From Branchiostoma floridae (Eukaryota > Chordata > Leptocardii > Amphioxiformes > Branchiostomatidae): a stretch of DNA of 64,000 nt. A program made the position numbers and the translations under genes. This document shows, piece by piece, positions 1,319 to 25,000 of this stretch; the first letter of the stretch is position 1, and every line of letters starts with the position of its first letter. The stretch covers positions 9,470,614 to 9,534,613 of the forward strand of contig NC_049982.1 of the NCBI RefSeq assembly GCF_000003815.2, in the 5' to 3' direction. The notes under the pieces are model-generated. The model searched no databases. It was not told where the DNA came from and worked only from the letters and a program-made list of their open reading frames with translations.

Positions 1319-2009
1319 CTATTTTCGTGGAGATCCGTACCACCAACTGGAGTTGAATTTCGTCACTTTGGTCCTCTGAAAAAGAGTTACAAACTTAATA
1401 TAACAGTACACCAATACATTCACTTCACTTGACATACATGTATTTACATGTAACTAAGAATCTTAAGAATTGCTAGCTTCTCAAAAGGTCTCAGCTCTTA
1501 AAATCAAAGTTTGTTGGCTACAGTTGGTCCTTGTACTTCTAAAAATTACAGATACAATAATATTATTATATTATACACAAGTCATGTTTTACTATACACA
1601 CATAAGAGTCACGTTTTAGTATGCCCTAAGCTAAAGATGAACTGTATATTCAAACATGAATGCAGATCTCTGTCCCTACCTCCTGAGATGTGAACTGCAG
1701 GATGGTGGCAATGGCTTTAAACATCTGGTCCTTGGCAGCATAGTCGCTGGTCGTCATGTAACGTAGAACAACGTTCTTCAGGTACTCCAGGTTGGCACTC
1801 TCTCGAAACCTGCACAATTCCAAAATATGATATATTGACCCCTGCATCAGCTCAACCTGCAGTATCTCTTGGACATTACAGATTTCTGCAAAAGAATATA
1901 CATATACAACAATCTAACAGCAAACACAAGATACAGACATTACCTGTTCCTTTCTAGTCTGTCCACCTCTCTCTTAAGGGCTTGTATCTGGTCTTGGTAT
2001 TTCTCCTCC
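1319..2009 (-). other. GCC1: GRIP-domain exons of GCC1
   Basis: Exons 16-18 encode the end of the coiled coil and the GRIP domain. Residues 726-768 include ANLEYLKNVVLRYMTT, with the family-typical tyrosine at about 735, and AIATILQFTSQE. The 19-codon last exon (1319-1375) adds a basic, tryptophan-containing tail (SSWWYGSPRK) before TAG. By family knowledge this domain binds Arl1-GTP on the trans-Golgi. The last exon is the least certain because it is short, but its acceptor is pyrimidine-rich and its frame is consistent. Confidence 0.85.
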
Positions 2010-5000
2010 CTGAACACAAGAAAGAGTAGGTCACTTTCCATACTGTGCACCATTTGACGATGTAACAATGTAGGTAGTCATCATTAATAAAAAGGTATTT
2101 TTCTGATTGCCCTATGAGCTTCCAAACATGCAACAACAGTACATTAAAGTACATTCAAACCTGCACAAGTGACCACCTCTACATAAAGATCATTAGGCCA
2201 ATGTGACCACTTTTTATTGGTTCCTTAGAAAATTTTTCTTACTGATGCAAGTACCAAGAATCCTGTGTACAGACACCACCTGTCCACATGGACAGGATTT
2301 CATTGATCCCCAGAGTGGTCTCCTGGGGCAGTTTTGACCATACAAACTTCAGACTTGGAACATTTCAGAATCAGACAATTCCGTGTACTGACTTGGTGGC
2401 TATCTCCTCCTGCAGCTGGTGGATGCTGGCCTCCAGGTGGTGCTTCTGTTTCCGCACGGCGGACAGCTCCACCTCGTTACGGGCCAGCTGCTCCGCGTAG
2501 TGCACAATCGTCCCCTCCCCTGGACTGGGCTGTCAGGACAACAACATTAGCCAGGCTGGTCTAAACATTCATCCAGACAGCAGCTAGCTCTATAAATTAG
2601 GAAATATCCTTATAAAATAGTGGCCAATGCTTGATCTAGAACAGCACAACTCTGTATGGCTGTCATCCACCTTGTTCACCTCAAACCATATCCCAAACCT
2701 TATCACACCACACACCTCTTTTACACCAAATAAGCAGTCATGTTTAATGGATAAGGTCCATATAGATTTAACCTTTTGTGGTATAGAGCAAAACCTTTCA
2801 CAAAACTTTATTCACCAACACTACCTCTACTGCCACCAGGTAATGTTCATCAATGTGTGTCTGGTACCTTTCTTGTTAACCGTGAGTGTGTCTGCTCATC
2901 ATGTTTATAGAGGAAGAAATCAACAAAAATAAGGTGAGTGTATGTCTCAAGTAAAGGTGTAAACTGAATGTGGCCCACTTAGAATTTACTTCTCATAAGA
3001 TCTCGAGTTAAATTTTTCATTTAAGAAAGATAATGGTAAGGACATTAAAGCAGTTTGCTTCTGTCATGATAAGAGTATTCCTGCAATTATTGATGCAATT
3101 TCATTTGCAAAATAAGTCACAATTCCACTGTATCAGTTGCCACCTTAGTCTATAGTGCCTCATGTTTCTCCAGACTCAATTATGGTACTTCATTTACACA
3201 TTAAGAAAAAGACATAGTCTATATAGTGATAGAGTAAGTCCCCCTCATTTCATTTCCTTATATTAGATCTTACGTTCTAGCAACAATTTTAAGATGTTTC
3301 ACTACACACATTCTACACACATGTACATGTTCATACATTACACAATGGTTAAAAGAAATGAGAAAGAAATGGAATGCCCCCTACCATGAGTGGCGTGAAG
3401 TGCGGCCTGACCAGTAGTTCAGACACAGTGTCGGAGTGTTCGGACCTGATGTCATCATCGTCATCAACCCCTGCTTCTGACCTGCCGTCTCGAGGGGAGG
3501 CACTGTGGGCACTGCCTTCACTACATGGACAGGACAGGCGGAGTCAGGGATTTCTCAATGGCAGACAAGAAAACATTTACCCTTATAGTTAAACTATATC
3601 TTGACAGCATTGTTCTGCATGAATTCAGCTGATCTATTTTGGGTTTCGTCTGATTTAATCGCGCTTCTTAGGTCCGTCCTACATTGCCGCGCCCAGGGGC
3701 CTACAAGCTCCGGATAGCGGAGTTTGCGTTACACAGACTATTTGGGGTTGCATGAAAGCCAAAACATCAGAGTCTGACACACCTACAAACAGCTACCTTT
3801 GGTTACTGAACATGTAAGGTGTGACAGGGCTGTGGGACAGGTACCTTTGGTTACTGAACATGTAAGGTGTGACAGGGCTGTGGGACAGGTACCTTTGGTT
3901 ACTGAACATGTAAGGTGTGACAGGGCTGTGGGACCTCAGCTGGAGGGACTGGAGCTCTTTCTCTTTCTCAGCCAGGAGCTCAATGGTTCGGTCCCGCTGC
4001 TTGTGCATTTCTGTCTCCAACTTTGCTGCCCTTTGCTGAAACAAAATGAAGTAATGAAGATATGATTATTGGTCCAAATGTTAGCCTTTAAGTTATTGAA
4101 GCTGTAATAAAGCTACTGCTTCCAAATTACTTCATTATAAGACAGATATTTTTTCTAACAGAAGTGCAATACATAGGAGTGGCTGTCCATCAACAATAAT
4201 TTGTACCTATTAGTAGTACCAATTCATCTCAGTTGTTAGTGGTATGCAATCAAAATGCTGACCGTGCACTTATCACACTGTGCATGTGGAAAACACCTGT
4301 CACTCACCCTATATTCCTCCTCTGCTTTATCAAGCTCCTTTTTATGTTCATTCTTTATTCTAGCTATCCTGGCCTCCAAGTCTTCTACCTGTTGGGACAG
4401 AGACTAAATGTAAAATTACCTCCAAAAAACAACACAGCAACAAGAGGCATCATTAAACATCAAGGCAGAGCTGAGTATTCATTTCTTTAAACCACTGTCA
4501 ATCCAAAAATGTATTTCTTCATTTCCTGTTCATCTATCACTACAACTGCTTTTGTGCATTGTATTCTAGTTGTCATCAACAAGATACTTGGGTTTATTAC
4601 TTTATTTCAAAAGAATTTCTACCCACCAATATCAGGGCACTAAAATCTATTCTAACCTTTCAAATCAAAAGATTTCTAAAAGTCATAAGTCTTTAAACCT
4701 TCTGTTTATCCTTGAGTTCCTGCTCATCACAGTACTGCCTGAGAGCGATGTGCTTCTCCCGCAACTCCTGCAGCTGACTGCGCAGAGTCTCTATCTCCTT
4801 CCCGACAGAGCTGTCCTAGAACACAAAAAAGCAAAGGATATTCAAGGGGTCACATGCACAATTTGGTGGTCAAGGTTGAATCTTTAGCTCTTTTAGATCA
4901 GAATGATAAAGCCAAGTTAGAAAACATGCCTAGAAATAAAAGACTTCTGGTGAACAACATGAGTAGCAATGGTTGTCAAACATGTATTTATATTATTGCA

Positions 5001-8000
5001 TGACTGTTACCTTTGCATTTTTGTTCTTGAGAACAGACTGTGCCCTCATCTTGTATCTCTCAAACTCCTCCTTGAGCTGCCTGTACTCCTGCTGACACTT
5101 GTCATGAGACACAGGGGATCCTGGGTCAGAGTCGTCCCCACCTGGGTTCATGAATGTGTACAAGTCTGAGGAAACAGGAAAGTCTGGGGTTAGCACATTT
5201 AAAAAACATACAGAGCAGTTACACATATACTAGGCAGATTCTTTATGATTACATCACTCCCTTTTTGTCCTAATTATCATCGAAGTGTAAATTTTTCTAG
5301 CCCCACCTCTTTGTCTAAAAACATCCAACCATCACCATTATCTTCTTCTATGCAAGTTTTTGGTAAATTGACTTTAGTTTGAGTTCCCAACAGGTACATT
5401 TTCTGTTTCTTTTTAACAAATTGTTGCACTGACACTGTGTGTTGGCTTTCCATGCTGTAATCTAAACATCTTTTGAAATTCAGCAGCTATATTAAAAAAG
5501 GTTAATATGTCTTTCTTGAGACTTTTGTTTTCAGCAAGAGTATCTGAGAGACCGGTCACCTTCTGGAGGCAGTGGTTGGTCAGATCTCTCGTTGGCAATC
5601 TTCATCAGACCAATCAGCTTCAGGATCTTCTCCTTGAGAGCATGAACATCTTGATTGGAGTCGTCTGGGTCGTCACTCTGGACTTTGTTGTTCGCTACTC
5701 TGGCCAGGGCAGTGTTCTCCATGTCTAGCTGTGCAATCCTTTCCTTCAGTTTTCTGGAACACAAATTCAGTACACAGGCTTTAAGCTGTCTACTTGGTAG
5801 ACTTAATCAAATAGTCTTACATGCATGTATTCAATCTCAGGGCACGCAATTTTATTCAATATTCTGGATACCAATAATGATTACACTGTGGGAGTAAAGA
5901 TAACCACCAACATCAGGGTGCACCAACCCCCTCTTAACTAGGAAAGGAAATATATTGACTTCCACCCTTTGACTCATTGCTTATGTCACACAAGTCATGT
6001 GTCCAGAGCCAGGGGATCAGATAGCTGAGGAGGACTGAGCAATTTAGCTGAAAATTATAGTCCAATTTGTTTTGAATTGGCAAAGAGTTTAAGCTCCTTA
6101 AGATTTACAAACTGTTTCTTTCAAAACTAGATCAATATGTCAATCAATAGACACCCACTCCATAGCTTCCTGGTCCTGTTGTCTGATCTTGTCGTAGTTC
6201 CCGACCACGACAGACAGCTCGGCCAGCTTGGCCTCCAGGTTAGCGACCCTGGCCTCCCGCTCGGCCTCCAGCTGCCTCAGTCTGGCCTCAGCCTCGTTAG
6301 CTCTGGTCTGCTCCTGCTGGATCTGTAGTCTGTGGTGGACCTGGGGGAGGGCAGGACAGGTTTCAGAAGAATCTAAATAACTTATCATTGACATAACACT
6401 ATAATCTAAGAAGTATAAAGGATTGTACATTACCCAAAAAAAATGAACACATTTATAATCTTTTTCTGAGCATAAACTGTTGATATGTTGCAGAGTTAAG
6501 AGTAATGGCTAGATCACATTTTGGTACAATCGACAAATGTACAATTGCAAACTGAGGGCATTCTTGGGACAGCCATTCACATGCCATAAAAATTCAGCTG
6601 CCTTGGTACCAAAAAGCCTGTCTTCAATTCTTGTTGGTGGTTAGTTACATGTACATCACAGCCCCCTATAACATCAAAGCTGTACAACAGTCTACGGTGA
6701 ATGTTAGAGAATGCCTGCAATGAATGACTTGCAGCCACCCTTACCCGCATCTCAGCCATCTCCTCCTGCAGCTGCAGCAGCAGTGGTGCAGGCTTGGCTG
6801 CGTCGTCCTCAGCAGCCTGCAGCCGTGCCTGCAGACCCTCCATCTCTGCAGACAGGTCCTGCATCTTCTGCTCATACTCTACAGAACTGAACATGACACA
6901 TAACAGTCAATCTTTCAAACTATCTCCGTTAATTCTGATCCTAACTTTAGCTCTGATCCTAACTCTAGCTCTGACTATGACTCTAACCCTCCATCTCTAC
7001 AGACAGGTCCTGCATCTTCTGCTCGTACTCTACAGAACTAAACATGACATTAACAGTCAATCTTTCAAACTATTCCTGTTAATTCTGATCGTAACTCTAC
7101 CTCTGACTATGACTCTCCATCTCTGCAGACAGGTCCTGCATCTTCAGCTTGTACTCTACAGAACTGACACAACCAGTAAATATGACATACAATTATTCAA
7201 GCTGTTTTTTTTTGTGGTACTGCTAATTTCTTTCGTACTGCATGGGCAGCTACCTCCATCTAAGCTGAAAAGGACTAGAAAGTAGTACTTTACTTACAGG
7301 TCAGGTGTGGCCTTCTTTTCTTCCAATTTAAGCTTCATCTCAAAAAGCTGGAATAAGGGAAACATAGTACATGTAGTATTAAAGACTTAGTTATACAGCA
7401 AGTTACATTCATATGTATCATTACTAACATCTCAGATATCAAAAAGATGATGAATATGCTACTTATTACATCTTAAGTCCAATTTATGAGACATTAGACA
7501 TCATGTACTTTTAACACTATTCAGAATACAGTATTCATGATCAGGAAACAGACAACACAAGGGAGTTAACCTCCTGTTCCAGCTGTTCCTTGGAAGCCCG
7601 TTCATCAGACAGCACCTTCTGCAGCTCCCTCAGCATCATGGCGTGGTCAGTCTGCTCCTTCTCTCTCTCCTGCTGCTGGCTGCGGATACGGGACTTAGCC
7701 TGCTCATGGGCACAATCAAACATTTGTTAAGTAAGGTCTACAACAAAAACACTTACTGCACGGCAAAGGCAACATGGTACAGGTTAAAAGACAATGTCAC
7801 ACATCTGGAGTCTAAATCATCAAGAAGAATGCTTCTGAATTTAAAGATCGAGTATTTGTACTTTTAAATTGAAATGGCCAGGCTGACATGTTACTGAAAA
7901 GTCAGACACATACGGGTTGTGTCATAAAGCTTATTTTCATTTTTATGTTACCAGAAACACTGCTGTAAGAGTTTTACAGCAGACCAACCTGACTGAGCTG

Positions 8001-10560
8001 TTCCTCAGCCTCTGCCAGCTGTTCCTCCAGCCTCTGCTGTGTCTCTTCTGCCAGCTTCTTGCTGTTTTCATTTTCTTGCTGTAGAGGAGAGAGATACAGA
8101 ATATACCAATGGCTTTGCTAACTCAATTTTTGTTTAGCTACAAAAATTGATTTCAATCTTTGTAATAAACATGTATAACTCCGTTAGCGTCTACAGCGTC
8201 TACACGGTTACGGGACTATGACCCCCACTTGCTTCAGTTGCCACCTGTCAGAGTGACATCATTTCGCGGCAGTCTGCAGTACTTCAGCGTGCAGTTGTGG
8301 AACAAGCTTTCTCAGGAAACACGAAGCATGATGAAGTTCAGGACATTTAGGCGCCAATTACACCTAATGGCTTAGTAATGCTATTTTTACAGTATGTTGT
8401 TATTTATTGTTATTGTGTTGTTTTTATGTATGCGCATGTGCCCAGGATTGCCTGAAAAACAGGTCTACGTTGACCTGAGATGTATTCCTGGTTAAATAAA
8501 TAAACTGAAACTGAATGTATAACTCCTCAATAAGTCATAGTAGACTAAAGTGAAACAGCAAAAATAGTTTCAGAATGTTGACTTTCTTCTTACAGTAAGT
8601 CTGAGTCTATAAATCACCATCAGTTTCATACTTAGTAAGTCACTCTCAAAGTCTGACTGAAATTAGCGTAAATCTTCAGGAAGTTTCAGAAACTACTTGT
8701 ATCAATCCTAAACCTGTGTCCTCACCCTGATGAGTTTCTTGTCAGCCTGGAAGCTGGCCTCCATCTGAGACTTCTGGTCGGTAACGGTTGCCAGGGCGTT
8801 GGTCAGGGTGGCCAGCTGTTCCTTCAGGTGGAGAATCTCATCCTGGTTCACAGACGTGGATCCAGCCTAACAGATGTGCAGTGCAACAATCTCTTGTTAT
8901 CACATATTTACATATACGTCACCTTTACTCTCATTTGCATCAGCAAGTTAGGAATTTTCTTACATGGATTGTTAGAGGGACTAATATAAGTATGTGTTAT
9001 TTTTAAACTTCTGCCTGATGTCTCATCATACTATAATCAATAGGGAATTGGTAGCTACTTCAGTGTGCTAGCATTCTAGCAAGTGTCACAGAGTTTAAGT
9101 TATCAAAAAAATTGTATAGCACTATGACTGTATGGAGGCATAAGTAAATGTGAAAACACATTTGTCACTTAAATGACCAAATTCATATTAGCTACCTATT
9201 ACAAGAGCATCTATTACTAGATGTTCACAGCTAACTTACCTGTCCTGTGGCATTGAGGGGGTCGACAAACGACTCTGCCCCGCTGTCTCCCGTGTTGGTC
9301 GCCTGTGCATCCCCGCTCGCCTCCGACGCTGTCTCTGAGGAGTCGTCAGTTCCAGAAGACACCTTCTCCACATGGTGTGTCCTGAGAGGCTCAGACCGGA
9401 GCGTCAGGACCTTGATGCTGGCCTCGAGAGCCTCCTTCTCTTTTGCAAGACCCTTGTATGCAGTGACAACATCTGGGAAAACAAGTAGAGAATGTGAAGT
9501 AACCTATGTTGCTACAAGGTTTATATTACTGTAAATCCAGTTCAGAAATTTTAGCAGTTGGGGATAAAGGGATAAGTCATGGCAGGGAACTGAGGTTCTG
9601 TTTAACGCTGTTTAAAGCTGAGGGAACACGTTTCCAGCTGGGCTCAGTCAAAGTCAAGACACCGGTGGACAACATACAGTAGATAACATGAAAACCGAGG
9701 CATCAAAACAAAATCAGTGTCCATTTCACCAAGCAGCTTTCATCAGATAAAACCTCCTTGATTTCACAGTGGTAAGTGGTAAACAATCAAAGGTCAAATC
9801 AAAAACGTCAAAGATGGAGTGGAGGTCAAACAAAGTATGCAGCAACAACATTTGAAAGCAATGCAAGGTTGCGAAGTAACCTTACACATTGCACATCTAA
9901 TACATACACCATGGTGATGATGGCGTTATTACATGCAAAGGCCAGGCCGATGATGATGGTGATGATCATATTCCCACGCTGACCAACTGCAGATACACCG
10001 ACTTATCCTGTGATCAGAATACCACCATCATGTTTACGTCAGGTAGTGAAGTAGATTAGCCTGATAATCATCGCATCTTATTGTACTATCTGGTTGAACG
10101 GCATAGTTTGCCCAAGAAGGTTAAACCTCCTTGGTTTGCCCAAGGCTTTTCTGAGCAATTTCACCACTTGTGAAGGGTCACATAGCCGGTAACCATTTCT
10201 GATACATGGGTATTCCAAAGGTACAATTGCATTATCACCACCAATTCAACCTTCATAAACGCCAGATCATACACGACTTTTCTTGCTTTCCATAATTTGA
10301 CAAGTGTAGTATAATCACTGCTTGGGGTCAAAGTTCAAAAACAGATTTTTGTTGTCATTTTGTCACGTCAAAGTTTAATAGATGGGACTACGTGACTTGT
10401 CTGATCTACATGTCTGTTATGTATAGGAGTTAGTGACAGTGTTAAAAAAACAAAAACTTGCCAACATAAAGTTACCTCTGAGTCTGTTTTCTAGCCGAGC
10501 GATCCGGTCCTTCTGTTGTTCGATGGTTTCAATGAGTTCTCGTCGGGCGGCGCGATCCAT
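1319..10560 (-). CDS. GCC1: GRIP and coiled-coil domain-containing protein 1 (GCC88-like golgin)
   Basis: Golgins of this family are peripheral trans-Golgi coiled-coil tethers recruited by Arl1 through a C-terminal GRIP domain. I assembled 18 coding exons on the minus strand: 10476-10560, 9240-9472, 8726-8866, 7989-8078, 7571-7699, 7298-7347, 6745-6886, 6159-6340, 5560-5753, 5011-5165, 4699-4815, 4308-4388, 3797-4035, 3385-3520, 2393-2529, 1944-2009, 1680-1809, 1319-1375. All junctions are GT-AG and the phases agree, giving 787 codons, close to the usual vertebrate length of about 775. The N-terminus (LIETIEQQKDRIARLENRL, then DVVTAYKGLAKEKEALEASI) matches the GCC1 start. The middle is heptad-rich coiled coil, with the segment YKMRAQSVLKNKNAK near residue 460. 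The GRIP domain lies around residues 715-770. The ATG follows a splice acceptor (AG at 10565-10566) by four bases, so a non-coding exon lies upstream. Odd points are a 16-residue tandem repeat in exon 13 and partial copies of exon 7 in the preceding intron. Confidence 0.93.
3797..3942 (-). repeat. GCC1: 48-bp coding minisatellite, three copies, at the end of GCC1 exon 13
   Basis: Three nearly identical 48-bp units encode the 16-residue unit YLSHSPVTPYMFSNQR (the first copy begins RSHSPV). Each unit ends in AAAG followed by GTA, so the exon's splice donor is copied with it. Exon ends at 3797, 3845 and 3893 would all keep the frame. Confidence 0.9.
6841..7190 (-). repeat. GCC1: Tandem partial copies of GCC1 exon 7 with its acceptor
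   Basis: The 5' part of exon 7, its acceptor and about 80 bp of upstream intron occur three times in tandem, starting at 6841 (the real exon), 6992 and 7118. Copies 2 and 3 keep an AG acceptor and about 50 bases of exon-like sequence. Copy 2 then meets a TAG in the GCC1 frame. Between the copies lie short CTCTGAC/CTAACT-type repeats. Confidence 0.85.
8183..8514 (+). mobile_element. 5'-truncated non-LTR retrotransposon (LINE) 3' end
   Basis: An open frame on the plus strand runs to TAG at 8373-8375. It encodes a typical LINE ORF2 C-terminus (VRVTSFRGSLQYFSVQLWN, then FRTFRRQLHLMA). It is followed by a short 3' UTR containing CCTGGTTAAATAAATAAA and ending in CTGAAA-type repeats. The insert is flanked by a 12-bp direct repeat ATGTATAACTCC at 8171-8182 and 8515-8526, which marks the insertion boundaries. 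It lies antisense in the GCC1 intron between exons 3 and 4. The clade (CR1/L2-like or another) cannot be fixed from this tail. Confidence 0.85.
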
Positions 10561-10704
10561 TGGTCTACAGAAGACAAAATCAGCCTTTCAGTGAGAACTA
10601 TCCTTTCTTTGGTCCCCTCCACTCTTTCTCGTGCAGATAGCGGTCCAGTGTTGCTTGAAATTCTTGAGTTACGGCGAGAGTGACGTGAGCTCGACATATT
10701 TTGC
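10561..10704 (-). promoter_or_regulatory. GCC1: GCC1 5' leader and probable promoter-proximal region
   Basis: Immediately upstream of the GCC1 ATG is a splice acceptor (minus-strand TTTTGTCTTCTGTAG), so a 5' non-coding exon must lie further upstream. The segment up to 10704 could hold that exon, but I cannot choose a donor. At 10705 the inverted-repeat element begins, only 144 bp from the start codon. Confidence 0.45.
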
Positions 10705-11299
10705 TGTTGGACGCCCGTTTGAGGCACTTGACATGGTCACGTAAAAAAAAGATTAAAAAAATTGCGGTGGGCTAAATCAGGCTGTCAAAGGTGTCCTCGT
10801 AATCCCCACGAGTTGTTCTATCTGCCTTGTAAATCTCAAGCGATGGACTTTTACGAGAAAGTATATATTTGATGTCAAAGTTGACCGATTTTCGACAGCT
10901 TTTTCCTATGGTTTCGCCATTGTTTTCAAGCCGAAATACGCACCGTATGGGGGTTTCGGGGTGTCCGCTTAGTGGGCGAGGTTCAACTGTTTCCGGGTCA
11001 CGCTATACCGTTGCGGCAGTCACTCGGGACCTCACTCGGTAGTGTACACAAGTACTTTTGATGGTGCTGTCAGCGTTTTATCATGTTACGAAGTAATATT
11101 GAAATGTCTTTGAAGTATAAGACAGCACTATGATCTGTAAGGTGTTATTCCAATAGGTTGCGTCGTGAGTAAAGTGAACTGTAGGTAACGTTACCCGACG
11201 AAGGCTTTTTGCATCTGACTGTTAACTGTTGAAGATATTAGATACATTGCTCGCGCCTGACTGAGGGATTAACTAAGATTAGAACAGTATATAGCTAAT

Positions 11300-13579
11300 T
11301 AATAGCGAAAAACGTGTTCAGAAGAGAAACTGTGCCAATTTGAATGACACAAAAAATAGCGCCGTAAGAATTGTAACGTTATATAGCTAACTTGTAGCGG
11401 AAAACGTGTTCAGAAGACAAACTGTGTCAATTTGAATGACACATCTAAAGGACCGTTGTGCGCTGCATTAAGTGTATATAGCTAACTAAAAGCGAAAAAC
11501 GTGTTCAGAAGAGAAACTGTGTCAATTTGAATGACAGACTTACAGAACAGTAAGAACTATAACGTTATGTAGCTACATGTAATAGCGCAAAACGTGTTCA
11601 GAAGATAAACTGTGTCAATTTGAATGACACACTTGCAGATAGCGCAATAAGAAATGTACATAGCTAACTCATAGCGGAAAAAGCGTTCAGGAGACAAACT
11701 GTGTCAATTTGAATGACACACTTGCAGATAGCGCAATAAGAACTGTATATAGCAAACTAATAGCGGAAAAAGTATTCAGTAGACAAACTGTGTCAATTTG
11801 AATGACATACTTGCAGATAGCGCAATAAGAACTGTATAGAGCAAACTAATAGCGGAAAAAGTGTTCAGTTGACAACTGTGTCAATTTGAATGACACACTT
11901 GCAGATAGCGCAATAAGAACTGTATATAGCAAACTAATAGCGGAAAAAGTGTTCAGAAGACAAAGTGTGTCAATTTGAATGACACACTTGCAGATAGCGC
12001 AATAAGAAATGTATATAGCTAACTCATAGCGAAGTGTAACGTGATCAGAAGACAAACTGTGTCAATTTGAATAACACACTTGCAGATAGCGCAATAAGAA
12101 CTGTACATAGCTAACTCATAGCTGAAAAAGTGTTCAGGAGACAAACTGTGTCAATTTGAATGACACACTTGCAGATAGCGCAATAAGAACTGTATATAGC
12201 AAACTAATAGCGGAAAAAGTGTTCAGAAGACAAACTGTGTCAATTTGAATGACGCTCTTGCAGATAGCGTAATAAGAACTGTATACAGCAAACTAATAGC
12301 GGAAAAAGTGTTCAGGAGACAAACTGTGTCAATTTGAATGACACACTTGCAGATAGCGCAATAAGAAATGTACATAGCTACCTCATAGCGAAGTGTTACG
12401 TGTTCAGAAGACAAACTGTGTCAATTTGAATGACACACTTGCAGATAGCGCAATAAGAACTGTATATAGCAAACTAATAGCGGAAAAAGTGTTCAGAAGA
12501 CAAACTGTGTCAATTTGAATGACACACTTAAAGATAGCGCAATAAGAAATGTACATAGCTAACTCATAGCGAAGTGTAACGTGTTCAGAAGACAAACTGT
12601 GTCAATTTGAATGACACACTTGCAGATAGCGCAATAAGAAATGTACATAGCTAACTCATAGCTGAAAAAGTGTTCAGGAGACAAACTGTGTCAATTTGAA
12701 TGACACACTTGCAGATAGCGCAATAAGAACTGTTTATAGCAAACTAATAGCGGAAAAAGTCTTCAGAAGACAAACTGTGTCAATTTGAATGACACACTTG
12801 CAGATAGCGCAATAAGAAATGTACATAGCTAACTCATAGCGAAGTGTAACGTGTTCAGAAGACAAACTGTGTCAATTTGAATGACACACTTGCAGATAGC
12901 GCAATAAGAACTGTATATAGCAAACTAATAGCGGAAAAAGTGTTCAGAAGACAAACTGTGTCAATTTGAATGACACACTTGCAGATAGCGCAATAAGAAA
13001 TGTACATAGCTAACTCATAGCGAAGTGTAACGTGTTCAGAAGACAAACTGTGTCAATTTGAATGACACACTTGCAGATAGCGCAATAAGAACTGTATATA
13101 GCAAACTAATAGCGGAAAAAGTGTTCAGGAGACAAACTGTGTCAATTTGAATGACACAGTTGCAGATAGCGCAATAAGAAATGTACATAGCTAACTCATA
13201 GCTGAAAAAGTGTTCAGGAGACAAACTGTGTCAATTTGAATGACACACTTGCAGATAGCGCAATAAGAACTGTATATAGCAAACTAATAGCGGAAAAAGT
13301 CTTTAGAAGACAAACTGTGTCAATTTGAATGACGCTCTTGCAGATAGCGTAATAAGAACTGTATACAGCAAACTAATAGCGGAAAAAGTGTTCAGGAGAC
13401 AAACTGTGTCAATTTGAATGACACACTTGCAGATAGCGCAATAAGAAATGTATATAGCTAACTCATAGCGAAGTGTAACGTGTTCAGAAGACAAACTGTG
13501 TCCATTTGAATGACACACTTGCAGATAGCGCAATAAGAACTGTATATAGCAAACTAATAGCGGAAAAAGTGTTCAGAAG
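11300..13579 (+). repeat. Left satellite array, about 25 units of 90 bp
   Basis: Each unit contains the core TGTGTCA-N7-TGACACA (N7 usually ATTTGAA), then a stretch like TTGCAGATAGCGCAATAAGA and a TATAGCAAACTAATAGCGG-type segment. The spacing is 90 bp from about 11520 onward. From 12060 the units alternate between two types (181-bp dimers), and markers recur every 540 bp (12121, 12661, 13201), showing a six-unit higher-order repeat. The array runs into the assembly gap. Short recurring frames on its minus strand are by-products of the repeat. Confidence 0.95.
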
Positions 13580-13924
13580 NNNNNNNNNNNNNNNNNNNNN
13601 NNNNNNNNNNNNNNNNNNNNNNNNNNNNNNNNNNNNNNNNNNNNNNNNNNNNNNNNNNNNNNNNNNNNNNNNNNNNNNNNNNNNNNNNNNNNNNNNNNNN
13701 NNNNNNNNNNNNNNNNNNNNNNNNNNNNNNNNNNNNNNNNNNNNNNNNNNNNNNNNNNNNNNNNNNNNNNNNNNNNNNNNNNNNNNNNNNNNNNNNNNNN
13801 NNNNNNNNNNNNNNNNNNNNNNNNNNNNNNNNNNNNNNNNNNNNNNNNNNNNNNNNNNNNNNNNNNNNNNNNNNNNNNNNNNNNNNNNNNNNNNNNNNNN
13901 NNNNNNNNNNNNNNNNNNNNNNNN
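13580..13924. other. Assembly gap (345 N)
   Basis: A run of N interrupts the element where the left array should meet the central sequence. Its true length is unknown, because a homogeneous array is easily collapsed. Any transposase or further satellite could be hidden here. Confidence 0.99.
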
Positions 13925-14410
13925 ACTAGTGTGGCAGCAGTCAGTGACAGCTGTCCACCAAAGTTTCCGTCATGAGGCAGTTTTATACTGTTTAACACTC
14001 GGTTATTAATTGCAAAGCCGTCCTCCTGACAAAGTTTTCTGTTATAAACTATTGTGTCAATTAATGTGACAAACTAGCAAACTGAATAGATATGCCTAAA
14101 TCGTATAATCATTCGATTGAAAAAGTTTTCGGCAGAGCGAGTTTTCCGTCATAATATAGTTATTATGCGTTTCAAAAGTGTGTCATATGATTGACACAGT
14201 TTTCAGCTCAGACAGCGCAGTACTAAATTTGACAGTTTACTTGAACAAGTTAGTATTTCAGTTACTTTAAACCCTACCATGGTCCAAACTCCAGTAATCA
14301 GTTGTTAATTGATATGAAATAACCGCATCTAAAGTCATATGTATATACGAAGGAACGCCATTTAGTTCGTAAGAAGGGACCTTAGAACTTGTCTGACACA
14401 CTTGCAGAAA
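13925..14410. other. Central non-repetitive segment of the inverted element
   Basis: This piece, between the gap and the right array, has no convincing coding frame. It carries a few degenerate versions of the TGTGTCA/TGACACA core (near 14050 and 14178). It may be the original spacer of the element. Confidence 0.5.
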
Positions 14411-16310
14411 AGCGCTGCCTGAACCGCGCTATTATATAAGTGTGTCATTCATATTGACACAGTTTGACTTCTGAACACGCATTAATATTTCGCTTTAAGT
14501 TAGCTATATACAGTTCTTACGGCACCATTATATAAGTGTGTCATTCAAATTGACACAGTTTGTCTCCTGAACACGTATTTTGCTATAAGTTAGCTATATA
14601 CAGTTCTTACGGCGCTATTATGTAAGTGTGTCATTCAAATTGACACAGTTTGTCTCCTGAATACGTTTTCGGTATTAGTTTGTTATATACAGTTATTTGG
14701 GCGCTGTCTACAAGTGTGTCATTCAAAGTGACTCAGTTTGACATTTGAACACGCATTGCGCTTTAAGTTAGCTCTATACAGTTCTTACAGCGCTGTTCTA
14801 TGAATGCATAATTCAAATTGACACATTTTGTTTCCTGAACACGTTTTCCGCTATTAGTTAGCTATATACAGTTCATTCAGCTTTGTTCTGCAAGTGTGTC
14901 ATTCAAATTGGCACAGTTTGACACCTGAATACGTTTTACGCGATTTCTTAGCTATATACAGGTCTTACATTGCTGTTCTATAAATGTGTCATTCAAAGTG
15001 ACACATTTTGTCTCCTGAACACGTTTCTCGCTATTAGTGAGCTATACACAGTTCTTACGGCACTATCATGTAAGTGTGTCATTCAGATTAACACAGTCTG
15101 ACTCCTGAACACTTTTTCCGCTATTAGTTAGCTATATACAGTTCTTTTAGCTTTGTTCTATAAGTGTGTCATTCAAATTGACACAGTTTGACATTTGAAC
15201 ACGCATTCCGCTTTAAGTTACCTATATACAGTTCTTACAGCGCTATTCTATAATGCATTGTGTCATTCAAATTGACACAGTTTGTCTCCTGAACACGATT
15301 TTCGCTATTAGTTAGCTATATACAATCCTTACGGCACCATTATGTAAGTGTGTCATTCAAATCGACACAGTTGGACTCCTGAACACGTTTTTCGCTATTA
15401 GTTAGCTATATACATTTCTTTCAGCTTTGTTCTATAAGTGTGTCATTCAAAGTGACACAGTTGGACTCCTGAACACGCATTGCACTTTAAGTTACCTATA
15501 TACAGTTTTTTTACAGCGCTGTTCTATGAATGCATCATTCAAATTGACATAGTTTGTCTCCTGAACACGTATTTTGCTATTAGTTAGCTATATACAGTTC
15601 TTAGGGCGCTATTATGTAAGTGTGTCATTCAAATTGACACAGATTGACATTTGAACACGCATTCCGCTTCAAGTTAACTATATACAGTTCTTACAGCGCT
15701 ATTCTATAATGCATTGTGTCATTCAAATTGGCACAGTTTGTCTCCTGAACATGTTTTTCGCTCCTAGTTAGCTATATACAGTTCTTACGGCACTATCATG
15801 TAAGTGTGTCATTCAAATTGACACAGTTTGACTCCTGAACACGTTTTTCGCTATTAGTTAGCTATATACAGTTCTTTTAGCTTTGTTCTATAAGTGTGTC
15901 ATTCAAATTGGCACAGTTTGACACCTGAATACGTTTTCCGCGATTACTTAATAGCTATATACAGGTCTAACATCGCTGTTCTATAAATTTGTCATTCAAA
16001 GTGACACAGTTTGTCTCTTGAACACGTTTCTCGCTATTTGTTAGCTACATACAGTTCTTACGACGCTATTATGTAAGTGCGCCATTCAAATTGACATAGT
16101 TTGTCTCCTAAACACGTTTATCGCTATTAGTTAAGCTACATACAGTTCTTACGGCGCTATTATGTAAGTGTGTCTTTCAAATTGACACAGTTTGTCTCCC
16201 CAAGGAGGTCTCCCGAACACGTTTTCCGCTATTAGTTCCCTGTATACACTTCTTACAGCACTGTTCTATAAATGTGTTATTCAAATTAACACAGTTTGTC
16301 TCCTGATGTC
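14411..16310 (-). repeat. Right satellite array, inverted, about 21 diverged units
   Basis: The same 90-bp unit as in the left array, in reverse orientation (TGTGTCATTCAAATTGACAC recurs about every 90 bp). The units are clearly more diverged from one another than on the left, with single-base changes in many cores and spacing of 88-94 bp. I see no 540-bp higher-order period here. Confidence 0.93.
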
Positions 16311-16840
16311 TACGAGAATGCCAGTTAGTTCGTTCAGAAGGGACCTTACAACCGTTGCAGATTCGCAACGTGGGCCGAGACGATACGAACAAACACAAAC
16401 TTAAAAAAACGTTCTGCAAGTTCAAACATACTTTCGCCAAGAGTCCCTTGACAAACCTAATTTAACAATATGCGTAAGCCTGACTTGAATCCTCCTCTAC
16501 CGAACCTAGCGCAGACTGAGACCGTCAAGATACCTGGTGACCCGCGTTCAATGACCTCACTCGTACGACCCGGAAGTATATGATCGTAATCGGTTGCACG
16601 GAAACCCCCATGCAGTGCGAAATCGAGGCCGAAAACAGGCATAAAGAGCCAGTTTGAAGGCTAACTTTGACTCTTCAAATCTCATCCCGAAATAATATTT
16701 GAATCAACACGAGTACTGTAGGCGATAGAACAACTCGTGGGGATTACGTGGGCACCTTTGACAGCCTGATTTGGGCCACCGCGATTTTTTAATCTTTTTT
16801 TTACGCGACCATGTCAAGTGCCTCAAACTGGCGTCCAACA

Positions 16841-17975
16841 TTGCACAACGCCCCGCCATGTTGGCATTTTTTGAGCGAACAACATCCGGTTTGGGAGCGT
16901 GGACCTTACCACTCCTCAAAGAGGGATACATTTTTTAAATTATTAGGTTAGATAAATACATAAAAACATCATTTAGATATATTCATGTAAATTAACATTC
17001 AAAAATTGAAGAATAGATATTCTTAACTGACAATTTTACATCAAAATACAGCTAATACATATTTTTGATTGTTTTGTGTCACCTTCTAAGCTGTGCACTA
17101 TTCTGAAATAGCGGAAGTGAGGTAATAGGTTAATCGAGGTCACCTCTAGGTGAAGGGTACACCCCTTTGTGGCGAACAGGAAGGTAGGCTCAAAATGTAG
17201 CGATTTTCTAACAAACCATGCAATTTAGCTTCTCTTAGCCTTGCTTTATGTTCTTGTAGATGTTCATAAAGCGGAAAATTAAGCGGTTGGGAATTTGGGC
17301 GGTCTTTGTGGAGCAGATGTTGAGTATGATCATCATCATTTTTAATATGTTCTTTCAAAATCATCTTCTAACGTCTGATGGATTTTACTAGTACCTTACC
17401 ACTCTAATATAGTGATAATGCTATGTATGTATGACCATATCTATATATGAGATATACAGATATATATGAGATGTACAGTGTTCAAATAGGTGTCCACTAC
17501 ATAGTCATACACGAACTGTTTGCAAGATTTAGGTGATAGAGGAAAAGAAGGAGAATAGCATTTAGTAATAGCAAAGCACAAAATAAATACAGAGCTGAGG
17601 TGTCAATATCTTAACTGGTGAAATGGAAAAACGAGAGATAAAAAATCTAAAAGGTTTTTTGATGATTTCATTACTTGGTGATATTTTCACCTAAATAAAC
17701 TACCTTTGATGCAGATGATTATAAATACTCTATGTTTGACATATAATGTTGCAGTCTCGAGATGGGTGTGTCAGACACTGAGACAGTACATAGAATACAT
17801 TGCAACATAGCATGGTTCCATTGGAGGATTGTAATACATGTAACGTTACTTGTATTGTTTCATTTCTATTTAGTTGTTAGAGCTTGTAATGTACTAGTAG
17901 CAGCTTGATTATAGTTCAAACTGTCCAAAATAAGAGTTATAAGTTGAGAGCCACAATTCTGTCTTGTCCATACAG
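16841..17975 (+). promoter_or_regulatory. EPS15: EPS15 upstream region
   Basis: The first coding exon of EPS15 begins directly after an AG acceptor at 17974-17975, so its 5' UTR starts in an exon somewhere in this interval or farther upstream. The GC-richer part at 16841-16930 is a candidate start region, but no core promoter motif is decisive. The remainder is AT-rich, with a small ATATATGAGATATACAG repeat near 17445-17478. Confidence 0.4.
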
Positions 17976-20900
17976 ATGGCATCGGGAGAGGCTGCTTTCG
18001 AGGGAATTTACAGACAGGTGAGTACTGGAGACATCCTTAAATATAGTAATCCAGTTTGGATAGATAGTTCAGCAAATAGTGTATATCTGAGCCAACCGCC
18101 ATTTAATAAGCCTTGCTGAATTGTACTATATATGTACTAGTTTATGTATACATGTAACGGCATGGATGAACGTTCAAACCAGGGCGTGACATCCACACAA
18201 TATCCATGAACATGTTCTAATGATGAAAGAGATTGAAAGATAACTTAATTATTTTCGTTTGCTTTTTTCCTCAGTAGCTATTGGATATGAGACAGTAGTG
18301 AATATGAGACTGTCATTCTCATTATGACATACTGATGGTACTGACTAGAGGGGCTCAAGATGTTGTTTCCAAACATGCCTTATTTTATTGAGGTAAACAA
18401 TTCACATAATAAGCCCTGTTTCTGTGTGTTCCCTTCCCAGCTGGACCCCTGGGGCCATGGAAAGGTTGATGCAGGTGAAGCAGCCGCATTCCTGAAGAGG
18501 TCAGGTCTGAGGGAGAGTGTCCTTCATAAGGTACAGATCCTCATGTCCCTGTGTACATGTAATATTTACTCAGCTTTGAAGTAGGAATATATCTACAATG
18601 TGATTGCCAGAATGTGAGTCAATTTGCCCCTACTAGTCTCCTACAGCTGCGGTACATTTGGAATATGATGGGTATTTGTACTTTGTGTTGCTATGATGAT
18701 GTAATCAAATTATAATTTCATATCTACCAGATATGGAACCTTGCAGACCAGGAAGGGGCTGGCTACCTGGACAAGAAAGTAAGTTGGTGATTGGATATGT
18801 TTTACTTCTGGTTCTAGCAAGGAGATTGAAATGACCTCCTTGCTTCTAGAATAGACTGAAAGACACATTTGAATTGTCAATAGAAAGCCTTTTGGCCACC
18901 TGGATCAAGAGCATAAGGATGCTAAAGTTTGGCCATACTTGAATGGAATAAGCTACTAGTAGTCGGTGAAGTATGGTACAACTTAACGCTTACAGTACAA
19001 AAGTGGCTCTAATCACGCTTCTCTTTGAGATCACTATTAGCAGTTTGTTCCTAACTTTTCAGATGTGATGTTGATGACCTAAATGTTGTTTTGTTGTGTT
19101 TGTGTTTCAGGGTTTTATTGTAGCTCTTCAGCTGGTGTCCCTGGCTCAACATGGTCAGGATGTCAGCGTGGAAAACCTGTCCTCCTCCATTCCACCTCCT
19201 ACCATGGTGAGAGGCATGATCACAATGTTTCCTTACTAGTTTTCTGATGTAAATTGAGAGAATTAAGTTCTAGATGTAATTGCAGCCAAATGTACTTATA
19301 GCTGACTGAAAGCTTTTAGTCTGAACCAAAGGTAGGTAAAAAATAATAGATGGAGTGATTAGTGGGTGACAAATGTTTATTTTCCTTTTAGACAGAGAAT
19401 GTTCCTGGCAGTTCCAGAGCAGCCTGGGCCATCAAGGTAAGACTATATATACACTTGAAGGAAAGGACAAAACTTGAAGGAAAGGACAAAACTTGAAGAT
19501 ACATGATTGTGTATATGTAAATTCTCTTTCATTCTTTATTACAGTTAGGTTGCTACTTGTCAATGTTTCTATGTCTAACATTTTACATCCTTTTCCGATT
19601 TACAGACAGAGGAGAAGCTGAAGTTTGACACCATTTTCGAGACATTGGACCCTGTGAATGGTATCCTGACTGGAGACAAAGTCAGACCAGTAAGGATTCT
19701 CCTGTTGTTTCTTCTTGTGTGTATGAGTAAAACTGTTTAATTACTACATGTATTACATACTTTTCATAAGTGTGCACGTAGCTGAAGGATGATATTCTGT
19801 CATTGTTGAATGGTGACAAAAATATGCCCAATATATTTATTTACAATTTCACACATCCCTTTTCAGGTTCTCTTGAATTCCAAACTTCCTGTGGAAATAC
19901 TTGGAACAGTAAGTACAATCGACAGTACTTCTTTCCAATTTCTAACAAAATGAAAATTATTGATTGTGTACATCACATTTTACGCTAGGCACAAATCCTA
20001 ATGATACTTTCATTGACAGGTTTGGGACTTGAGTGACATAGACCAGGATGGCTGTCTGGATAAAGAAGAATTTGCTGTGGTAAGTAATATATAATTATGA
20101 CACATGAGCCTCTTATTATCTCATCGAGAGGTTTGGAATGTTGCAAATGATCAGTTCATGTTCAGTAGATCCTTTTCAAAGAGCATTTTATACAGGATAT
20201 CAACTGAAAATGATTTCATGGAGTTGTCAAGCACTTATGATGAAATACATGTTCAGTTACTTCTAACTGCTTCATGTTACTCCAGGCGATGCACCTGGTG
20301 TACCGTGCACTGGATAAACAGCCGGTCCCCACCACCCTTCCACCAGAGCTCATCCCACCCTCCAAGAGAGGCCCCAGCCCTGGCCTGGCTCCTGGTCCAA
20401 CTCCTGCACTTACATCTCCAGCACATGCTCTACACTCACAGGTTAGGCACTTCTTAACTCGCTGTTTTCCCTTGATTCTGAAATTGTGTTTACTTTAGTA
20501 TAAGATGTTTTGAGTGTACACCTAGTGACATTTAAACAACAAACCAGAATTGCTAAAAAGGCTAAACGCTATAGCCAGCAACTACAAGAAAAAGTGACTG
20601 TTTAAAGCTATAACATTGACAGATAGTTGACAGATGATTGGCAGATGGCAGCACAACTAGTTCAAGGAAAAACTCTCAGACCCTTGCAACAGTCGTATTG
20701 AGGTCCCCAAATGGTAGCTGCTCCAGATCCAGACCCTTGCAATTTAGCACCACTTATTTTAAGCTCCTTACAATTCAGCCCCTAGCTGCAAGGAAAGAGT
20801 AGTCGGCCCACCCAATAACAATAACAATAACAATAATTTTACATTCCAGCCCGCCCCGTGGGTGGTGACACCTGGTGACAAGATGAAGTATGACAACATC

Positions 20901-22065
20901 TTCAGACAGGCAGACCTGGACAAGGACGGGTTCGTGAGCGGTGGGGAGGTCAAGGATGTCTTCATGCAGTCTGGAGTTCCTCAGAACGTGCTGGCACACA
21001 TCTGGTCTGTACCTGTCATTGTCTTCTTGAAAATAAACATCTTAATTGTTAGATCGTAACTGTCTTTCAGTAAAGCAGTTTGGCCCCAAATAGAGTGGCT
21101 ACATGTCCATCAAACTGTTACTAGTACATTCCTACCTAATTCTTTTGCCTATCTATTCATGCAAGTGTATTACTGGGCCCGAAAGAACATCATTGTATTC
21201 CATCTGCAGAGCTGGAAATATATTTGGGGAATCTAAACATCTAGGTGCCTAGAAAAAAAATAGGGCAAGCAACATGAAATCAAGTAGCATTGAAATAAAG
21301 ACCACATAGATGTATCTTGGTGCACCTGCAGTGAAACATTAGGTGCTCTGCTCTGATTTCAGGTGAAAAGAAGTGCACATGCAGCCATGCACACAATATT
21401 TTTAGCCCTGAGCTATGTCTGTTTGCTTCTGGATGATTTTCAGTACTTCTTGTAGTTTATCTTCAATCATGACATGGGCTTTGCCTCCCCCACAGGACTT
21501 TGTGTGATGAGAAGCAGGCTGGGCTCCTCAATACTGAACAGTTTGCTCTGGCCATGTGGCTGATTCAGCAACAGGTGCTTGTCTACCTTATCTATACTAT
21601 CTATACTTATCTATATATAGTTTTATTGCACAACATTCTTGAAATTGTGTTAAACATATTTGCAAAGAGGAGAAGTTCAGATGTGTACCCCTTTGTCAAG
21701 AGAAGAAGTCAATTGAAAATACCAGTAGCCCTGTATTGTATCACATGTCTTTCATGTGTATGAACACAACATCAGCATGCTGCTGCCTTGTGTATGAAAA
21801 TACTGTATTGTTCTGTTTGCAATTGAAATAAAGTCAGAGACGTCAGTGTGTTTCTATGAAAACTAATAGGAGTATGCCTTGTCCAGCATATAAAAAACTG
21901 ACCCATTTGGCACTCCCTCCAGGTGAAGGGTATTGACCCTCCCCAGCAGCTGTCCCCAGAGATGATCCCCCCGTCCTCCCGCCAGGCCAAGTCTGCCGGC
22001 GCTGACGTCACCACCATCGCCAAGGAGATGGACGTCATCGGTCGGGAGATCCAGGACCTCACCAG
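17976..22065 (+). other. EPS15: Three EH domains of EPS15 (exons 1-12)
   Basis: EH1 has [20 protein letters not shown]2 has [18 protein letters not shown], with a canonical EF-hand calcium loop (D-D-D-G-C-D-E pattern). EH3 has a canonical first EF loop ([13 protein letters not shown]) and [13 protein letters not shown]. The tryptophan that forms the NPF pocket is present in all three domains. EH3 is followed by [18 protein letters not shown], a linker typical of this family. The codon for the EH3 tryptophan is split across the intron at 21005-21495. Confidence 0.93.
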
Positions 22066-25000
22066 GTACATGGGCGGGTCATCAGTGTCGATCCTGATGA
22101 AGGCGACACTGGTCGTTGAAAATTTGATCCGTGTATACCCTTGCGTTGGAAGAAAGTTGAGCATTGTACTATGGTCTGGGCTGGTCTTGTTGTCATGGAG
22201 GCTGATGTGGGGACAGAGCTGTAGTGTTGGCAACTGCAGCTAGTTTGAGTTGTCCCTAATAACTTTAGCAGTTAACCTGTTGCAGGAATTTAGATACGTG
22301 TATTACATGTACAAATCAAATGGTAAGTTGAAGATAGGATCATCCAGCCTCTGGAAAAGAAAGAGAAAGTATTGCATTTGTTTAAACTTATGCACTTTAC
22401 ACTCCTTCCAAAATTTTGTTGATGCAACCACAAGCTTGTACAGTGTGCCTGTCAGTGTTGCATTGCCATTATAATAGTGTAATGCTAGAAATATCACATG
22501 ACTAATGTTTCATGTAAGTAGAAGAAACTTGTCTGAATAGATACCAGTTATCCTGAGTCCAAATTGGTCCTGAACTGTTGAGCAGAAATGAGGTGTAATA
22601 TGTTTTCACATGTATTTGCATTTTTAGAGAACAGGAGAGTCTACAGTCAGAGATCACTGACAAGCAGCAGCAGATCCTGGACATCAATAGTCTTCTGATG
22701 GTCAGTACATAGTGTGTGTTACTGTTAGGAACATTACCAAACTGCACAGTATACAGGTCTCATTCAGGCTTGCTTTATTGTAGCTAGTAGTGCTGTAGTC
22801 AGGATCTGTGACCATATCACCAGACCTTGAGTATAGTGGTGTAGAACTCAAACTTCTGCAATGTTTCTTTTTTCATTCTCACTTGATATCTTATTTGCTG
22901 TTTAGACTCTGTCACTTTGTGCCTAGAGACTGAGTAACATGTGCTGTGTGTTTGTGTGTGTAGAACCTGGAGGTCGAGGCGAACCAGAGTCAGACCACCC
23001 TTCAGCAGCTGGAGAAACAAAAGGCCGACACACTCCTGCCTGTGCAGAAACTGGACAAGCAGGTCAGATTAAGAAAACTTGCACTATGTTAAAAAAATTG
23101 ATGCCAGAAATGCCATTTCACTACTACCTAGCCCTGTACCCAATAGAGAATTAGTAGCCACTATTTCAGCATGCTAAATGTTGAAGTGCATTGTTTCTAT
23201 GGCTATGCAGCATGTCTGTTCTGCTAACCTTGAAAGAAAGATGGGAAATGGCTGTAGTAAATCCTGAGAGCATGCTGACATTGTAGTAATATTTAACTAT
23301 GTGTGTGTGTGCGTGTGTGTCTGTCGGAAGAAGTTACTGTTCTTGTAATGTTTGTAGGACCTAATTCATTTGTTTCCCAATGCACTTTTTGTTAGTAAGA
23401 CTTAGACCATCCCTGCTTCCTTCCCTTAGGGACTGGTCGATATTTAGCGGGGGGGGAGGGCCGGTCGTCAGAGGGTCGGGTCAAAAATTTTTTCCTAGGC
23501 CCTCCCCCCAGGTCAAAAAATTTTTCCTAGGCCCTCCCCCCAAGTCGAAATATTTTTCCTAGGCCCTCCCCCCTCCTATGAAATTTGAAAAATATTAAAG
23601 ACGCCAATAAATCACTGCGCTCCCGTTTGGAAATGTCTTCACGCCATACTTATGATAACGTTACTGGTTTTCATCGCGAGGCAGATCTCTTACCCCTAGC
23701 AAAAAAAGGGAAATTGAATGGCTCGGAGCCCATAAATATATGATTCTTGGAGGCTACTGTGTTCTTCTGATATTCATAAATCCACTCTATCCAAACAACG
23801 CTACAAACTGAGTATTTTGTACCTGGATTTCTAGTAGATTTGCGCCGCTTGGCGGCGCGCTCCCCGCCCCTTTACTTAACGCATTACAAGTTCATGGGGT
23901 CCGAGTAGCTTGTCGGAGACTATTTTCAATTCAAGTACCTTTTGTACTTTTTCTTGGTTCTGTGGTGGCAATAACTGACGGTAATTAATCGGGGGGAAAT
24001 GACAACAAAAACGTCAGCACGATACGACTAACCAAAACTGTAGTGGGGAGGGGGGAGCCGACGTGTGACGACGATCCCACAGCGGGGTTGACCGGTCGCC
24101 TCTGTAGCTGCCGGTGGGCGTGAGAACGCAGACTTGTACTTGGGAGATCTTTTAAAAATGCCACGCTTTTTGGACATCCATTTTGTCGGTCAAAAATGAC
24201 GGAATGGGCAAAATTGTCGGGAAACTGGAATGCATTACGAATCTGACACGTTAGTTCAAATTCTTTTCTCTGAAGCTGTGTGTGTATCAGTGGCCTTGTG
24301 AACAGTCACGCTTGTGATTTTCATAGTTTTATAACTATCGACAAAGGAATCGTTCAACTCAGTTTAAGTTAAATAATGTTTTCCTCCTGGTGCAAACTAT
24401 AAACAGACGCCAGTTTCCCGGGTTATTCGCAAAGTTTTCAGCTTCTAAGTGATTGACGTAACTTAACCGCGTTTTTGGCGCCGCTGCTGGCTGTGATTGG
24501 TTGCAAGTTAATTCTATTTTTCGCATAACGTGGCAAGCCCTGTCAAATCGGTACATCTAAAGACTGCCGCCAAGGCTGTTGTCATGGTAACGACACGTTT
24601 AGCAACATTTCCCATGCAAATCGAGTTACGCATGTCTTGTACTGCGTTTGATCATTATGATAGTTCTCAAGTCGAAAATGTGTACAGATTATAACGTTAA
24701 CAAGGAAGCGAACATGAAACAAGGAAAGCTGAATTCACAAGTCTCACCGGCCGTTTCGCAGACGGCACTCTGTCACCAGTCATCTTCCAGAGCGTTCCAA
24801 ATCATGAAAGAAAACACGCATTTTCCCGTCATTTTTTGCGGTAAAATCTGAGGAAAATACCGACATGTGTTGGTACGCGTACGCAGATGTTGACAAGAAA
24901 TGCAAGTTCTTCCAAGACGCCAAATTTTGTCACCGTGACTGAATTGTGGCATTGCAAACCGGAAGTACATTTTTACGTCGCATTTTGGTAACTTTATCGA

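Follow-up and report, generated by a model that had tools for sequence, protein, structure and literature searches.

A satellite-armed, probably foldback-like transposon family of Branchiostoma floridae and its insertion at a fixed distance from a YY1-type motif

A 64,000-nucleotide stretch of the Branchiostoma floridae genome (contig NC_049982.1, positions 9,470,614 to 9,534,613, hereafter the window) contains an element with two opposed arms of tandem satellite repeats, which is one copy of a family with at least 35 insertions in the genome. In this paper we describe this family, which is very probably a recently active, non-autonomous, foldback-like cut-and-paste DNA transposon with terminal inverted repeats (TIRs), its target being set by a motif of the YY1 type. 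It is established that the copies form a family with defined ends and target-site duplications (TSDs), that they carry no long reading frame, that they have spread recently, and that they insert beside the motif with one spacing and one orientation rule. An earlier interpretation of the window, made without database searches (the sequence-only reading), had recognised the inverted arms and overlooked the insertion at a fixed distance from a YY1-type target, which is the most striking feature of the family and a possible reason for the promoter location of the window copy.

Flanks were assembled for 35 insertions from the 513-Mb source genome of the window, 27 with both flanks and 8 with one flank, which were counted separately. 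At 25 of the 35 sites the word CCAT, read outward, has its first base exactly 15 bp away from one end of the element, and at any other offset it was found at most once (62 flanks of 150 bp each); the reverse word, ATGG, occurs at most twice at any offset. Of the two-flank sites 22 of 27 have this CCAT, where 0.15 would be expected (P 1.4e-45), and none has it in both flanks; of the one-flank sites 3 of 8 have it. When the 25 sites are aligned on CCAT the logo is GCCGCCATnTTGG, with the consensus GCCGCCATnTTG and then (G), and this consensus matches that of YY1, whose motif is given as CGCCATNTT / GCCATCTTG, a sequence that lancelet YY1 reportedly binds (PMC7481187; this and the other papers are cited here from partial text). 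The orientation of the motif is constant, its ATGG side lying toward the insertion. It stands next to the right element end in the window copy and next to the left end in the copy at C9:5641393, so both orientations of the element are used.

A perfect TSD is present at 21 of the 27 two-flank sites, of 4 bp in 19 cases and of 5 bp in two, and the duplicated sequences (GCCC, CGCG, GAGC and TTGG, for example) share no consensus. Where the TSD is 4 bp long, CCAT is 15 bp away from one cut and 11 bp from the other; at the two 5-bp sites the far cut is still at 15 and the near cut is at 10. The ratio of observed to expected CpG is 0.81 at the motif sites and 0.49 in the window, which is the sole comparison. 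A genome search for the pattern GTCCAACA, 15 bp and CCATNTT returned 20 matches, as against 13 with the pattern reversed. This family accounts for 13 of the 20, and the remaining 7 do not exceed chance.

With up to three mismatches the terminal 24-mer has 65 matching ends in the genome, among them 52 exact ones, and a single match in the reversed control. The further copies that the sequence-only reading had called for, with different satellite content and different flanks, thus exist: the arms vary, and the 200-bp flanks of the insertions are mutually unrelated (no BLAST match at E 1e-4). Among the best 40 of 135 candidates for the left end most are 95-99% identical to it, and among the best 40 of 138 for the right end the weakest matches are mostly a 90%-identical sister sequence. 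Stretches of about 10 kb were read at 20 loci. In 19 of these the left end (576 bp) shares 96-99% identity with that of the window copy, and in the twentieth (L028), where it is broken by a gap, 383 bases are 98% identical; a full right end was read at 12 loci, with an identity of 96-99%. Mean pairwise divergence is 1.3% between left ends (19 copies) and 1.6% between cores (11 copies), so the family has spread recently. The 13.8-kb contig C341 (L017) has a left end at base 1 and three family ends within 10 kb, possibly two copies that were collapsed or mis-joined in the assembly. It was excluded before counting: the first end is at base 1, another borders N, and the third (10001) was unused.

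Each copy consists, in order, of a TIR, a left subterminal region, a left satellite arm, a core of about 1.3 kb, an inverted right arm, a right subterminal region and a TIR (Table 1). The inverted ends seen in the sequence-only reading match well, the left TIR being identical to the reverse complement of the right at 114 of 123 alignment positions (93%, E 1e-47), and the TTGC duplication proposed there, like the end of the element at 16840, agrees with our coordinates. The termini are TG...CA, with TGTTG as the terminal sequence. The longest gap-free reading frame touching the window copy has 94 residues, and the core of the copy L022 (about 1.3 kb), to which the cores of 11 other aligned copies are 97.5-99.2% identical, has no frame of more than 74 residues. 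Length ranges from 4,588 to 8,813 bp among the 13 copies that have both ends in one stretch, several of them gapped. Inside the TIR itself there is an ATGG (CATGG, window 10732-10736), that is, an outward-reading CCAT starting 32 bp inside the end. This CATGG recurs in the family ends listed by the inner-TIR search, except for a few rows with one mismatch, and may be a second factor site.

Table 1. Coordinates of the element, its parts and its neighbours in the window, and of selected sites elsewhere in the genome
Feature	Positions	Strand	Remarks
Likely first coding exon, GRIP-domain (GCC1-type) gene	10473..10560	-	likely ATG at 10560
Left TSD, TTGC	10701..10704		
Whole element	10705..16840	+	6,136 bp including a 345-bp assembly gap
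Left TIR	10705..10827	+	123 bp; opens with TGTTGGACGCC
Left subterminal unique region	10828..11280	+	
Left satellite arm	11281..13579	+	mostly 89/92-bp monomers, 25-26 copies, core TGTGTCAATTTGAATGACACA
Assembly gap (N)	13580..13924		345 bases; other copies have the central core of about 1.3 kb here
Central non-coding core, part	13925..14425	-	97.5% identity to the core of L022 (550 bases aligned)
Right satellite arm	14426..16306	-	about 90-bp monomers, 21 copies, opposite orientation
Right subterminal unique region	16307..16719	-	
Right TIR	16720..16840	-	terminates in CCAACA
Right TSD, TTGC	16841..16844		
YY1-type target motif, CGCCATGTTGG	16854..16864	+	CCAT at 16856, 15 bp from the element end and 11 bp past the TSD
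Likely first coding exon, EPS15	17976..18017	+	14 protein letters; read by eye
Two-flank site without CCAT at 15	C2:27199411		
Two-flank site without CCAT at 15	C12:4552248		CCAT at 16
Two-flank site without CCAT at 15	C6:24893249		
Two-flank site without CCAT at 15	C8:23601481		
Two-flank site without CCAT at 15	C8:3365509		CCAC at 15
Sister right-end fragments, L064	613-976 and 2427-2790		
Sister right-end fragments, L065 and L066	501-864		

Satellite arms of about 90 bp in opposite orientation were also part of the sequence-only reading, and Tandem Repeats Finder reports them as such, with a period of 89 (also 181 and 270) at 11281-13579 and of 90 at 14426-16199 (274 to 16306). Counted by the core motif, the left arm of the window copy comprises 25 phased monomers and the right arm 21. 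Opposed arms of tandem subrepeats around a middle domain occur in all 13 of the two-ended copies examined, with 18-42 monomer matches on the left and 17-31 on the right per copy, several copies being gapped. The core motif yielded 558 units of 82-100 bp from these 13 copies, a set that lacks strongly diverged units. Within an arm the similarity between monomers is 0.85 on the left and 0.82-0.83 on the right, and between opposite arms it is 0.80, irrespective of whether the monomers belong to one copy or to different copies; for 359 of the 558 the nearest neighbour is exclusively in the same arm of another copy. Because monomers are closer within an arm than across arms, and have their nearest relatives mostly in other copies, the two arms descend as separate lineages, which vary in length from copy to copy and undergo no homogenisation with each other.

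Two further properties of the monomers are not used as support. The hairpin fold of one consensus monomer (z -1.8; 9 of 200 shuffles as good) is too weak for an argument, and the palindromic core TGTGTCAATTTGAATGACACA has raised conservation with one anchor outside the core and no clear increase with the other. Two copies have stretches of their own in the left arm that are not satellite, at element positions 1325-2382 in L009 (1,058 bp) and 3418-4126 in L019 (709 bp); neither has a BLAST match in the other 12 two-ended copies, and they are possibly nested insertions.

The single fixed offset and orientation suggest a rigid complex of the motif, or of a factor bound to it, with the integration machinery. 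A transposase supplied in trans would recognise the ends and link them to target DNA cut at two points that are 4 bp, or in some cases 5 bp, from each other. The choice of target would depend on the motif: the motif-distal cut would be positioned by a rigid complex of the transposase with YY1 or with the motif itself, the motif having its ATGG side toward the insertion. We cautiously favour the more specific form of this mechanism, in which the integration complex is built on the host factor YY1 at RNA polymerase II promoters and inserts the element with single-base precision 15 bp from the motif. Copies would thus enter CpG-rich promoters or 5' untranslated regions, as between the GRIP-domain gene and EPS15 in the window, and targeting by the motif would therefore explain why the window copy splits a head-to-head gene pair. 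The satellite arms would be passengers, changing length within each arm. In lancelets the YY1 motif has been plotted around ubiquitous promoters, and 25% of neighbouring protein-coding genes are in a bidirectional promoter arrangement (PMC6292497).

Several observations weigh against a transposon that is targeted by the motif. A perfect TSD is lacking at 6 of the 27 two-flank sites and the exact CCAT at 15 bp at 5 of the 27 (Table 1), and the sites without the motif are just as CpG-rich as those with it (0.82 and 0.81), in a comparison with this window alone. We infer both the superfamily and the docking partner, since no transposase or autonomous partner was found in the end-pattern searches given below. 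Occupancy of the sites by YY1 is likewise a prediction, and the pattern would be the same for a transposase with a domain of similar specificity. That the transposase's own DNA-binding domain reads GCCATnTT, with YY1 uninvolved, is a possible but doubtful alternative. Base-exact spacing and a fixed motif orientation would fit one protein touching both the motif and the cut, and Dada is said to resemble elements which recognise their target DNA directly (PMC3706591). The logo, however, spans the wider YY1 consensus including its weaker flanks GCC and TTG, and such a domain would have had to converge on the preference of YY1.

The other explanations are much less probable. Preferential insertion into open promoter chromatin or at nucleosome edges by a passive process, the YY1 motifs being bystanders, would agree with the CpG richness of both classes of site, yet the offsets would then scatter; 25 sites at offset 15, no more than one at any other, and a single orientation make it very unlikely. 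We consider it equally improbable that the motif is the start codon of genes (ATGGCG), with the insertions falling immediately after translation starts. With an A at -3, ATGG does resemble a start context as generally described, but frames opened from this ATG close after 3-50 codons in 19 rejoined empty sites (after 16 or fewer in 15 of the 19, introns not considered), and the likely start codon of the window gene is a different ATG. Because of these short frames the start-codon reading was rejected. Finally, the window alone, with its two opposed arrays, could be read as a local segmental inversion of a satellite array without any mobile element, as the sequence-only reading had itself allowed. 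The dispersed insertions share the same ends, lie in unrelated flanks and mostly have target duplications, which leaves this explanation a negligible probability.

For the targeted transposon, an autonomous partner was sought by its ends. The terminal 24-mer, with up to three mismatches, led only to sites of this family in the genome, and 100 listed of 118 matches to an inner-TIR 28-mer comprised 67 of this family and 33 of the sister sequence. These 33, which are dispersed, have three mismatches and all share GAGGCATAAG. No autonomous relative was found in these end-pattern searches, and no protein-level search for a transposase was made. A 17-kb copy on C12, of which 6 kb were read, contains gaps, satellite and end sequence and no transposase-like frame by eye. 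The sister sequence, a fragment with 86% identity to the right end of the family, is contained in a repeat about 1.95 kb long with Helitron-like ends (TC...CTAG); this repeat is preceded by A and followed by T where the flank is not N, and is 98.7-99.6% identical between the loci read (L064-L066, with L067-L070 around two of these). An earlier related element that was subsequently captured is suggested by this arrangement.

On the left of the element the likely ATG of a minus-strand gene is 144 bp from the element end, the distance given in the sequence-only reading. We take it to belong to the same gene as a GRIP domain (PF01465, 4.7e-18) at 1653-1913 on the minus strand, the exons between them not being joined. 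The name GCC1 used in that reading is a putative one based on the GRIP domain, other GRIP proteins not being separated. The window copy probably lies inside the 5' untranslated part of this gene. On the right, the likely first coding exon of EPS15 begins about 1.1 kb from the element end, as had been proposed; the EH exon of this gene (20763-21059) has the EPS15 EH domain 1c07 as best PDB match (2.5e-16). Elsewhere in the window there are inverted repeat pairs of 97-100% identity (34367-34517 with 39026-39178, and 38873-38947 with 39145-39219), perhaps of the type of miniature inverted-repeat transposable elements (MITEs), and short 32-bp tandem repeats of the CAAAATTTTTTTCCTAGGCCCTCCCCCC type at 23479-23573 and 25400-25491, about 1.9 kb apart.

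If this account is true, promoters receive tandem repeats by the kilobase from a satellite-armed family that can also separate the two genes of a bidirectional pair, which is a route for kilobase doses of satellite DNA into chordate promoter regions. The fixed distance in base pairs to a factor motif provides a testable model of a transposase that uses a bound host factor as a ruler, and would supply an example from nature of DNA insertion being directed to active promoters. The copies, which are about 1% apart and may still be polymorphic, could also serve as a system in which to measure the effect of the satellite. No YY1-targeted or motif-phased DNA transposon was seen among the literature matches listed, nor was this family among those on lancelet satellite, TIR or MITE elements, although it possibly has a name in Repbase. 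Among these matches, target choice by docking at promoters would be apparently new for cut-and-paste elements.

Foldback (FB) and the sea-urchin TU elements have inverted arms of tandem subrepeats. The arms of the present family are alike in this respect. Its opposite-arm monomers are about 80% alike, and the lengths of subrepeat and TSD differ from what is generally known of FB and TU; unlike these, the family has a transcription-factor motif at a fixed spacing as its target. Helitrons have no TIR and no TSD and end in TC...CTRR, and assignment of the family to them is ruled out by its TIR and TSD.

The closest build is that of Tetris, a foldback element of Drosophila virilis, which is non-coding, has long inverted arms with tandem repeats in a flanking domain and a middle domain, varies in repeat number between alleles, and has no autonomous copy found (PMC4079207). 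The foldback likeness pointed out in the sequence-only reading therefore holds for the architecture and not for the TSD, which is 8-10 bp in Tetris and 4 (5) bp here, and no transposase was found in our searches by which it could be extended. The Tetris repeats are about 220 bp long as against 89-92 bp, three structurally complete copies are described as against 27 two-flank insertions here, and the available text has no mention of a motif-phased target (PMC4079207). Ginger1 and Ginger2, both reported from B. floridae, share with the family TGTNR termini (here TGTTG), a 4-bp TSD and long TIRs (PMC2836005). Ginger1, however, duplicates CCGG or CCGT/ACGG (PMC2836005), and although the length fits, none of our 21 perfect TSDs is one of these; Ginger2 prefers RTATAY (PMC2836005), with which TSDs such as those listed above do not agree.

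With regard to target choice, Dada is a DNA transposon which, like the family, has a strict target specificity, but it inserts within multicopy small-RNA genes with a TSD of 6-7 bp, a length that does not occur here, whereas our copies lie beside a motif in dissimilar flanks with a TSD of 4 bp (PMC3706591). ProtoRAG, a lancelet DNA transposon, works with YY1, but its YY1 site is in its own TIR and its TSD is 5 bp, whereas here the YY1-type site is in the target (PMC7481187). The retrotransposons Tf1 and TRE5-A are targeted via host DNA-binding proteins and insert near their targets at no specific positions (PMC3706591), whereas in most sites of the present family the position is exact to the base.

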